Assembly (NCBI GenBank): GCA_937973995.1
Contig: CALJIQ010000368.1
Span: forward strand, 1 to 34,017
Direction: 5' to 3'
DNA length: 34,017 bases
Source: an uncultured Saprospiraceae bacterium
GTDB taxonomy: Bacteria > Bacteroidota > Bacteroidia > Chitinophagales > Saprospiraceae
The position numbers were made by a program, and so were the translations under genes. Below are positions 3,608-32,482 of the stretch, one piece after another. How positions within the stretch are numbered: the stretch's first letter is position 1; each line of letters begins with the position of its first letter. Under the pieces are notes generated by a model. That model searched no databases and had not been told where the DNA came from. It saw nothing but the letters and a program-made list of their open reading frames with translations.

Positions 3608-5152
3608 TTAATCAGACAAAAGCGTATTTTCAACAAGCATGCGCTCCACAAAAGTATCCCACTGTTTTACCCAAATCCGCAAAGCGGCTACTTTTTCCCT
3701 AACCGTCAGAGAGGAATAATAAATACCATTATAAGACAATTTTTTAAGCGCCGCCAAGTCCAATTCCCAAGCTAAAAAAATCGACCAATAATCATAAGAC
3801 AAACCATGATAATCGAATATCAATGGGTCATCTGAACTAATGGTACAGTTGATACCTCTTCTAAGATAAGTACTAGCAGGATGGTTACGAAGGTCTCGAA
3901 TATATCCCAATACTTGGTTACTCAATGGACTGATTTCCATACAAATATCCTTTTCTTTTACCAACTCTAATAATTTGGGAAAGCGATACAGATTATAACC
4001 ATGACCTATTCGTTTAGTGCCTAATAGCACCGCATCGTATAAATTATCTACGGAGGCCCAATTGCTTTCGCCATCATGTAAATATAAAGGTAACTGCACG
4101 CCATGTGCCCCTTCTAAGGAATCTAGTCGCAAAAATTGCGGCGTATGAAAGAGCGTGGAATGTCCCGCATCTTCTTCCGCTACTAAATCAAACCCTCTAA
4201 CCAAATGAGGAAATTTCTTCCGAGAAGCAAAGACCTCTTCCATTTCTTCCCAAATAGCCGGACCTCCCTTAAACCGCAAACTACAATGAATAATATGAAA
4301 AGAAAATTCAGGATCAATTACTTTCATTCTTCGCCGAATATTTTCATGAATAGCGGCAAAACTTTCAATCCCTAAACTACCTTTTGGATTTTCTAAATCA
4401 TACAAGCGATCTAAAAAAGCCGTTCTCATTTCGCAGTGTTGGATATTATCTTCTACTAAAATCTCCATGCCATGAACGATATAATCTTCGTAGGCAGGTC
4501 GGTAATTTAAAAAATCATTAATTCTAGTAAAAATGACTTGGAACTCGCCCCAAATATCCACTGAATCTCGATCCATTTCTTCTTCAAATACCAATAAGGA
4601 TCGTAGTTCTTGATAAGCAGAAGGTTGCTCTGCTAATAGGGATTTAACTTGTACAAAACCTGGAGGTGCCTCTCCTTTTTTATAGGCGTGAAAGGTGCCT
4701 TTGGGAATATCCGCATTCGTTTTGGAATCCCAATAAATATACATTTCTGGCAAGGATTGAGCTTTTTGTATCATCCAATCTGCATCTCCCATTGCGCCTG
4801 AATGTAAATGAAGCATTCCTCCCTTTGGGAAAGCTTTTATAAACTCAAAAAGTTTGGTTCCTTCTATATGTGCCTTGGATTGGTAAAAATTGCGAGCGGG
4901 TGGGAAAAAATGTTGGTCTTTATAGGTTTGCAGCATTTGCTGTTGCAGTTTCACTAACTGTTGGTTCAAGCGTTGCTCTTTCTCCGATAGAGAAATTGCG
5001 TAATCAAAATACAATTGACTATCTTGTCGCATTAATTTTTGCCGCTCTTCTAGGTATTGTTTGTACGACCGAGGCGTTTGTGCTATTAATTGGAAAGCAG
5101 CTATACTAACAAGTAATAGAATAGTTAGTCTCCATAGTAGTGTTTGTTTCAT
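3608..5152 (-). CDS. Secreted adenosine deaminase, ADGF-like
   Basis: Signal peptide; MLHLHSGA metal motif, LYLHDGES, GTKRIGHGYNL, EISPLSNQVLGYI, TISSDDPLIF. Confidence 0.9.
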   Translation of the reverse strand: MKQTLLWRLTILLLVSIAAFQLIAQTPRSYKQYLEERQKLMRQDSQLYFDYAISLSEKEQRLNQQLVKLQQQMLQTYKDQHFFPPARNFYQSKAHIEGTKLFEFIKAFPKGGMLHLHSGAMGDADWMIQKAQSLPEMYIYWDSKTNADIPKGTFHAYKKGEAPPGFVQVKSLLAEQPSAYQELRSLLVFEEEMDRDSVDIWGEFQVIFTRINDFLNYRPAYEDYIVHGMEILVEDNIQHCEMRTAFLDRLYDLENPKGSLGIESFAAIHENIRRRMKVIDPEFSFHIIHCSLRFKGGPAIWEEMEEVFASRKKFPHLVRGFDLVAEEDAGHSTLFHTPQFLRLDSLEGAHGVQLPLYLHDGESNWASVDNLYDAVLLGTKRIGHGYNLYRFPKLLELVKEKDICMEISPLSNQVLGYIRDLRNHPASTYLRRGINCTISSDDPLIFDYHGLSYDYWSIFLAWELDLAALKKLSYNGIYYSSLTVREKVAALRIWVKQWDTFVERMLVENTLLSD

Positions 5153-5236: not shown

Positions 5237-5330
5237 TTTCCCTGAAGTGGACATCGAGTCCACTTCAGGGAAACTAGGGTTTCTAAAGGGAGAAGGTAGG
5301 CTGCGCCTACCTTCTCCCATTAGAAACCCT
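5237..5330. promoter_or_regulatory. Two strong hairpins in the divergent intergenic region
   Basis: Hairpin 1: TTTCCCTGAAGTGGAC-ATCGA-GTCCACTTCAGGGAAA (perfect 16 bp). Hairpin 2: AGGGTTTCTAaaGGGAGAAGGTAGGC-TGC-GCCTACCTTCTCCCatTAGAAACCCT. Function not known. Confidence 0.6.
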
Positions 5331-5368
5331 TAATAACAATCAATAACTTATCATAATAGATTTTATTA

Positions 5369-6757: not shown

Positions 6758-6768
6758 GGTTTTTTTAA

Positions 6769-6905
6769 CCACATTAGGGCACATAAGTTGGGTCACATTA
6801 GGGCACATAGAAGTGAAGATCAAGATCAAGTTCAACCAATTAGATGTTGACAAAATCAAATCCCATTTGTGAACTAATGTGAAAAAACTAATGTGCCCTT
6901 ATGTG
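6769..6905. repeat. CCACATTAGGGCACATA palindromic element, copy 1
   Basis: CCACATTAGGGCACATAAG / CTAATGTGCCCTTATGTGG ends; homologous to 32283-32440. Confidence 0.88.
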
Positions 6906-6919
6906 GTCCCCAAAGCCCT

Positions 6920-8949: not shown

Positions 8950-8957
8950 ATTTTTTA

Positions 8958-8986
8958 TTGTGTTAACACTCTTGGTGTTAACATAA
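8958..8986. repeat. Short palindrome carrying the same asymmetric ends as the 75-nt hairpin family
   Basis: TTGTGTTAACACTCTTGGTGTTAACATAA: TTGTGTTA left, TAACATAA right, as in 26364-26438. Confidence 0.6.
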
Positions 8987-8994
8987 TTTGCTTT

Positions 8995-9134: not shown

Positions 9135-9208
9135 GTTATGTTATCTCAAATTTTAACGGTAAGAAAATTAAAAATTTTCCTACCGTTAAAATTTAGAGCT
9201 AACACAAC
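9135..9208. repeat. 74-nt conserved-end/variable-stem hairpin, copy 1 (A...B orientation)
   Basis: GTTATGTTATCTC-AAATTTTAACGGTAAGAAAATT...AATTTTCCTACCGTTAAAATTTAGAGCTAACACAAC. Confidence 0.9.
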
Positions 9209-26363: not shown

Positions 26364-26438
26364 GTTGTGTTAGCTCTAAATTCTTTTATTTTAAAAATTT
26401 ATCAATTTTCAAAATAAAAGAATTTGATATAACATAAC
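26364..26438. repeat. 75-nt conserved-end/variable-stem hairpin, copy 2 (B...A orientation)
   Basis: GTTGTGTTAGCTCTAAATTCTTTTATTTTAAAAATT...AATTTTCAAAATAAAAGAATTTGATATAACATAAC. Confidence 0.9.
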
Positions 26439-26452
26439 TCAATGAAAGGGAA

Positions 26453-26527
26453 ATTATGTTATCTCGAATTTGAGTTACTAGAATTTTTATCAAAATTCTA
26501 GTAATTCAAATTCAGAGCAAACACAAT
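26453..26527. repeat. 75-nt conserved-end/variable-stem hairpin, copy 3 (A...B orientation)
   Basis: ATTATGTTATCTC-GAATTTGAGTTACTAGAATTTT...AAAATTCTAGTAATTCAAATTCAGAGCAAACACAAT. Confidence 0.9.
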
Positions 26528-32282: not shown

Positions 32283-32440
32283 TTTAAACCACATTAGGGC
32301 ATATTAGTTTTTTCACATTAGTACACATAAGACTAAAGATCAAGAGCAAGTGCCAAGTACAAGTTCAACCTATTATAGGTTTCTCAGAAGCTTTATTTCG
32401 TGGACTAATGTGTCTCAACTAATGTGCCCTAATGTGGTTA
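32283..32440. repeat. CCACATTAGGGCATATTAG palindromic element, copy 2
   Basis: AAACCACATTAGGGCATATTAG...ACTAATGTGCCCTAATGTGGTT; homologous to 6769-6905. Confidence 0.88.
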
Positions 32441-32482
32441 AAATACAATCAGCAAAGCGATACCATCAAACAATCTTCCAAT

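Follow-up and report, generated by a model that had tools for sequence, protein, structure and literature searches.

A stretch of 34,017 nt (the window) from a Saprospiraceae MAG of 5.4 Mb (the source genome) carries three hairpins that share their ends and differ in their inner stems, which raises the question of what kind of element keeps its ends and its pairing while its interior sequence changes. Inspection of the sequence gave the coordinates, the ends (RTTATGTTAKMTC and GAGCTAACACAAY in all three) and the bulge exactly as an earlier note on this DNA had claimed (Table 1). Read on the strand that runs from the A end to the B end, the B-side bulge is an extra A, and position 4 of the ends holds an A.C mismatch that is likewise conserved. 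A doublet architecture, two hairpin types and a short form, which were absent from the earlier note, were found in addition.

Table 1. Members of the hairpin family in the window and the spacer of the tight doublet.
Feature	Position	Strand	Description	Support
Short form, 31 nt	8957..8987	-	Ends ATTATGTTAACACCAAGAGTGTTAACACAAT, the same as those of the long hairpins	
Hairpin, 74 nt	9135..9208	+	G-type body (GTTATG...CACAAC)	Sequence; covariance model R1, 85.4 bits
Hairpin, 75 nt	26364..26438	-	G-type body; left half of doublet	R1, 78 bits
Doublet spacer, 14 nt	26439..26452	.	First base T, last base A	
Hairpin, 75 nt	26453..26527	+	A-type body; right half of doublet	R1, 81.3 bits

Searching the source genome with the pattern TTATGTTA-N-TAACACAA returned 101 matches (52 forward and 49 reverse), so further copies exist, and the reversed-pattern control returned none in the same genome. 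A covariance model built from 64 copies reached E=1.2e-15 for its best match in this genome, where the matches were mostly the model's own input copies. Among 299 genomes of the family, clear copies were found in the same genus only (101 in the source genome, 16 in G296 and 6 in G065), the scattered matches in other family genomes being at control level, and when DNA across GTDB was scanned with the long-form pattern, the only additional genome retrieved was CAKZUM, an uncultured Saprospiraceae MAG. The copies are dispersed and mostly extragenic, with few sites inside predicted ORFs. We extracted 76 hairpins from 40 contigs plus the window. Most copies measure 69-77 nt, and to this extent the constant length claimed in the earlier note holds, but forms of 31 nt and of 54-59 nt also exist.

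Pairing in the inner stems is preserved to a degree that chance and shared ancestry do not reproduce. In an alignment of 64 full-length copies, the ends are nearly invariant, including the position-4 A.C mismatch and the single additional B-side A, whereas all 18 inner pairs show changes on both sides. Standard pairs occupy 96.1% of cells, compared with 67.2% after shuffling and 37-46% in slid structures, and the covariation score reaches 0.675, where shuffled data give 0.151±0.009. Shuffles overstate significance because the copies are related; the slid controls preserve this relatedness, yet they fail as clearly as the shuffles. Mid-stem columns have a pairwise identity of only about 0.23-0.51 but are 79-100% paired. 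The outcomes that would have spoken against the earlier note, a lack of further copies or interiors that are conserved or unpaired, were thus not observed, and stem covariation was very strong. Furthermore, among the closest copies, which differ in 1-3 columns, 67-78% of those columns already show changes on both arms, about half of the pair-to-pair changes are transversions with no possible G.T intermediate, and the stems contain no excess of G.T over A.C mismatches (10 versus 21), hence no RNA signature. These data speak against RNA-level selection through wobble intermediates; they favour either DNA-level copying of arms or selection during mobilisation.

Neighbouring hairpins lie almost always head to head, with A ends inside and B ends outside, and are usually separated by 12-22 nt; longer spacers may contain other palindromic repeats (L057, L069). 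Every full-length doublet joins one G-type body (AAATT...TTTAGAG) to one A-type body (GAATT...TTCAGAG), three apparent A/A doublets being A plus G when judged by body sequence. The 31-nt short form ATTATGTTAGCACCAAGAGTGCTAACACAAT, which has the ends of the long form, also makes doublets, and the one at 8957-8987 is the head-to-head partner of the hairpin at 9135-9208 across a gap of 147 nt, forming a mixed doublet. The earlier note had regarded the inner stems as unrelated, a view that did not survive the comparison of more copies: the stems fall into drifting subfamilies, that is, groups of doublets with both stems in common and small compensated differences between members. Because these groups keep both stems together, doublets spread as units. 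One such subfamily (G AAATTCTTTACTATTC with A GAATTTGATTCAACTAG) includes the window doublet 26364/26453 and has at least eight members in the source genome, and a doublet of G296 is 82% identical to the window doublet and has unrelated flanks.

Among the contigs fetched, we found no orthologous insertion site common to the source genome and G065 or G296. At the orthologue of the window site 26364-26527 the doublet is absent from both species, and a different palindrome (ATCTTACATCATAAATC...; L157, ~2070-2180 in G065; L158, ~3820-3920 in G296) follows the same gene in both and in G065 lies between the same convergent genes. This site is thus variable between species, yet it is no clean empty site. 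We saw neither an excised nor a newly inserted copy, nor a clean empty site for a window-family doublet with which flanks could be compared; in the listed flanks, no target-site duplication was visible.

The window doublet at 26364-26527 fills the gap between two convergent genes and ends about 10 nt from each stop codon. This placement, together with the different palindrome that occupies the orthologous gap in G065 and G296, speaks for RNA-level elements (bidirectional terminators or stabilisers of mRNA 3' ends) held under RNA-folding selection, with spread as a secondary matter. Gene orientation at the hairpin sites is mixed, however (14 >>, 12 ><, 11 << and 6 <>), and its bias is weak as evidence for terminators; the stems have no G.U excess, an Rfam search gave no match above the gathering score and sequence inspection found no T-tract downstream of the hairpins. 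In addition, the doublets, which spread as subfamilies, are found on either side of a transposase gene, and we consider an RNA-level origin very improbable.

The co-occurring transposase that the earlier note expected was found in the same genome as a RAYT gene (REP-associated HUH tyrosine transposase) with flanking hairpins. It lies below the Pfam Y1_Tnp threshold and was reached only via a sister species. A covariance search of the genus revealed in that species, G159, a second family of heterodimeric head-to-head doublets (GTTGGGTTAGC...GCTAACCTAAC - spacer - GTTAGGTTAGC...GCTAACCCAAC), whose ends are unlike those of the window family and which shows the same position-4 mismatch, extra B-side bases and variable inner stems, with 108 end sites versus 16 for the control. 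A 243-aa ORF of G159 sits exactly between such GTTAGGTTAGC hairpins; this RAYT matches the REP-associated tyrosine transposase model NF047646 (NCBIfam REP_Tyr_transpos) at E=1.3e-14 and 54 bits, below the cut-off of 80, and Y1_Tnp at 0.002 only. Its counterpart in the source genome is a divergent RAYT of 240 aa (contig C155:4010-4732, outside the window), 58% identical to the G159 protein. Hairpins of 75 and 54 nt lie on its 3' side, one of them touching the stop codon, and hairpins of 71, 75 and 54 nt on its 5' side, while a 31-nt hairpin is located in frame within the ORF (L037:4119-4149), after the Y motif, in a stretch whose length varies among relatives. Flanking of a RAYT by its own elements is the REPtron arrangement, a mark of REP/RAYT systems (PMC6006769). 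The motifs read NHFH...YIHRNP, with LFQ in place of WQ, and at the level of sequence match no published subclass exactly; for a clade profile of 24 relatives, E. coli TnpA-REP (4ER8) was the sole PDB match (E=3e-8). Genus members without a RAYT of this type have few or no hairpins (6 in G065, 16 in G296 and none in G222 and G266). Pfam Y1_Tnp searches in the source genome and five relatives gave other genes of RAYT/IS200 type, which were ruled out as candidates, as they have no flanking hairpins of the present family. Another RAYT of the source genome (L074, C226) is surrounded by its own TCGAAGTTTGCAACTTCGA-type repeats, so several RAYT-REP pairs may coexist in this genome.

With copy number, heterodimeric doublets, fixed ends bearing a mismatch and a bulge, compensated stems, a flanked RAYT and a parallel in a sister species all established, we conclude that the hairpins are very probably REP elements in REPIN/BIME-like doublets, non-autonomous and spread by the divergent RAYT (TnpA-REP) of the source genome. 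The flanked RAYT in both the source and the sister genome is the reason to class them as REP/REPIN-type and not as attC sites, terminators or DDE MITEs. An ordinary MITE of a DDE transposase, with terminal inverted repeats of ~75 bp that are palindromic by chance, would also present its doublet hairpins in inverted orientation, but the listed flanks show no visible target duplication, the hairpin-bracketed gene is a RAYT in two species, and the mismatch and bulge strand-mark each unit as expected under single-strand recognition, so that we give this origin hardly any credence.

Several observations go against the REP reading, among them the missing GT[AG]G tag, RAYT motifs that match no published subclass exactly and the lack of any observed mobile event. 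Neither GT[AG]G nor CGTC was found at the hairpin foot and nothing is fixed 3' of the B end, the only fixed flanking base being a single A 5' of the A end (64 of 64 aligned copies). Elements of RAYT subclass 2.6 and class 3 have already been listed without a tag (PMC6006769), and because such tagless subclasses are published, the tag marks canonical REPs and not all RAYT-associated elements. Additionally, the copies of G065 and G296, which have no flanked RAYT, need loss, relics or assembly gaps to be accounted for.

The reference systems are the REPINs (Bertels & Rainey 2011, PMC3116915) and the BIMEs of E. coli with TnpA-REP (PMC8266576). Like these, the present elements are dispersed inverted doublets of imperfect palindromes that flank a RAYT gene, with fixed ends, compensatory changes and an interior in which length and pairing matter; unlike them, each unit is ~74 nt long and has no GT[AG]G tag, the mid-stem is almost random in sequence yet ~95% paired, the doublet always combines a G-type and an A-type body, and a 31-nt short form coexists. 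Among the TnpA-Y1 of Bacteroidetes, subclass 2.4 likewise has a REP in frame in tnpA, and its 'double foot' REPs carry inverted tags at both ends, whereas subclass 2.6, also of Bacteroidetes, has 'atypical secondary structures' without GT[AG]G (PMC6006769), a type to which the present elements may belong. The present RAYT differs from both in its NHFH, YIHRNP and LFQ (for WQ) motifs, and from subclass 2.4 in the location of its in-frame hairpin after the Y motif. The text consulted (PMC6006769) records these atypical structures of Bacteroidetes RAYTs and contains no copy-by-copy analysis of them. The earlier comparison with integron attC sites stands as far as action on a folded single strand is concerned, with conserved ends, an extrahelical base and a variable stem in common; it fails in that the enzyme is an HUH RAYT, the RYYYAAC/GTTRRRY boxes are absent and the ends (GTTATGT...ACACAAC) have the opposite orientation. 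Hairpins made by template switching and quasipalindrome mutations also show compensated changes of several bases in a single step, as well as new perfect stems (PMC8794818), but the present family is mobile, its ends are fixed and deliberately imperfect, and the link between the two is one that we infer. Double-hairpin elements of mitochondria were considered as an analogy, and a literature search found no paper on these elements. The REP/REPIN kind and, in outline, compensatory change within REPINs are therefore already known, while the long units, the missing GT[AG]G tag, the obligate heterodimer, the extreme compensated variability and a RAYT outside the exact published subclasses are new, as is the clue provided by copy-specific complementary arms in a related RAYT genome.

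This clue comes from RAYTs outside the genus. RAYTs were detected at E<1e-30 in 32 of the 299 family genomes, and strong palindromes flank most of those inspected. The closest one outside the genus, in G264, is 46% identical, and the G264 REP core (CCCTGTTAGGG-TTTCGAAA-CCCTAACAGGG) has TGTTAG in common with the window family. The G264 core CCCTGTTAGGGTTTCGAAACCCTAACAGGG (loci L305-L328, ~position 1500 in each) occurs at 12 sites, and at 11 of these it is extended by arms of 12-28 nt that are specific to the copy and exactly complementary. One copy forms an in-frame part of the linker in a LytTR response regulator, whose orthologues in three species have neither core nor arms. Another lies between nuoC and nuoD, a gap that in G305 contains a related core flanked by different arms of ~25 nt; the right arm there, TTTCACAAAGGCTTCTTCTGAAC, is similar to TTTCACAAAGCTTAGTTATTCTG, which in G264 is present unduplicated. 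This short match at one site hints at one native arm and a second that arose as an inverted copy. Palindromic repeats in the nuoC-nuoD gap differ between related species (G264 L306, G305 L360, G302 L361, G304 L363), which suggests rapid repeat turnover at this gap. The G264 arms are consistent with fold-back copying of neighbouring DNA, and our literature search found no published account of inverted duplication at REP insertions. Together with the compensated stems and the conserved mismatch and bulge, the copy-specific arms bear out the earlier idea that structure rather than sequence is selected or produced.

In the mechanism that we favour, the RAYT would recognise, on single-stranded DNA, the hairpin as a whole together with its fixed asymmetric ends, and the mid-stem would serve as a sequence-neutral spacer on which pairing is the sole demand. 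For E. coli TnpA-REP, the upper stem-loop is reported to play a non-specific, structural role, and the mismatch bulge and the tag matter (PMC8266576). Compensatory changes have been reported as common in REPIN interiors (PMC3116915), and template switching is a known maker and keeper of perfect stems (PMC8794818). Pairing may be kept largely by such fold-back copying of one arm from the other, beyond slow paired point mutations, and this would account for the scarcity of intermediates. Any arm copying must spare the ends or be filtered by selection, because the mismatch and bulge persist there. The same RAYT system could also operate with no arm-copying step, complementarity being kept solely by selection in each round of mobilisation; the ends retain their mismatch and bulge as selection would have it, and the variable stems derive from inheritance within doublet subfamilies rather than from local DNA, although the closest copies differ on both arms in at least two thirds of the differing columns, with half of the changes transversions, and the copy-specific exact arms of G264 are hard to explain by selection. 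We regard this selection-only account as quite possible, somewhat short of an even chance.

A more specific and tentative proposal, which we hold as possible rather than probable, is that REP mobilisation by RAYTs of this clade is coupled to fold-back synthesis that writes inverted adjacent DNA across the hairpin. Each event could then mint a new, exactly complementary pair of arms. In G264 and G305 such arms would flank the core; in the window genome and G159 they would have accumulated over lineages, between the fixed ends. In the window genome, the variable stems showed no excess of capture from local DNA over swapped controls, and outward palindromic extension of the G264 kind is absent from this genome and from G159 (at most 2 nt); because the stems of the window genome have neither outward extension nor local origin, we can only infer their link to the G264 arms. 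If the coupling is true, what this mobile DNA copies would be its structure and not its sequence, and the copy-specific arms of G264 make the fold-back step directly testable. The system touches two open questions, the way in which RAYTs mobilise REPs and the reason why pairing in REP hairpins persists while their sequence drifts. The genus offers two sister species whose RAYTs are homologous and whose substrate ends, about 100 in each, have diverged in sequence; they amount to a natural saturation experiment that can separate the features which the enzyme would read (ends, mismatch, bulge and length) from the mid-stem sequence, which it would ignore.

Lastly, the window contains other repeats. 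Positions 5273-5333 belong to a second palindrome family (ACAAGGGWTTCTAAAGGGGCA...), with 9 copies among the contigs fetched; here too the outer arms are fixed, and the inner segment (AACTGAGGC, AGGTCAGGC or AGACAGACTGGC) varies with compensation. Two long, partly complementary repeats with ACATTAGGGCACAT-like units, at 6768-6907 and 32283-32443, probably represent a further repeat family of this genome.
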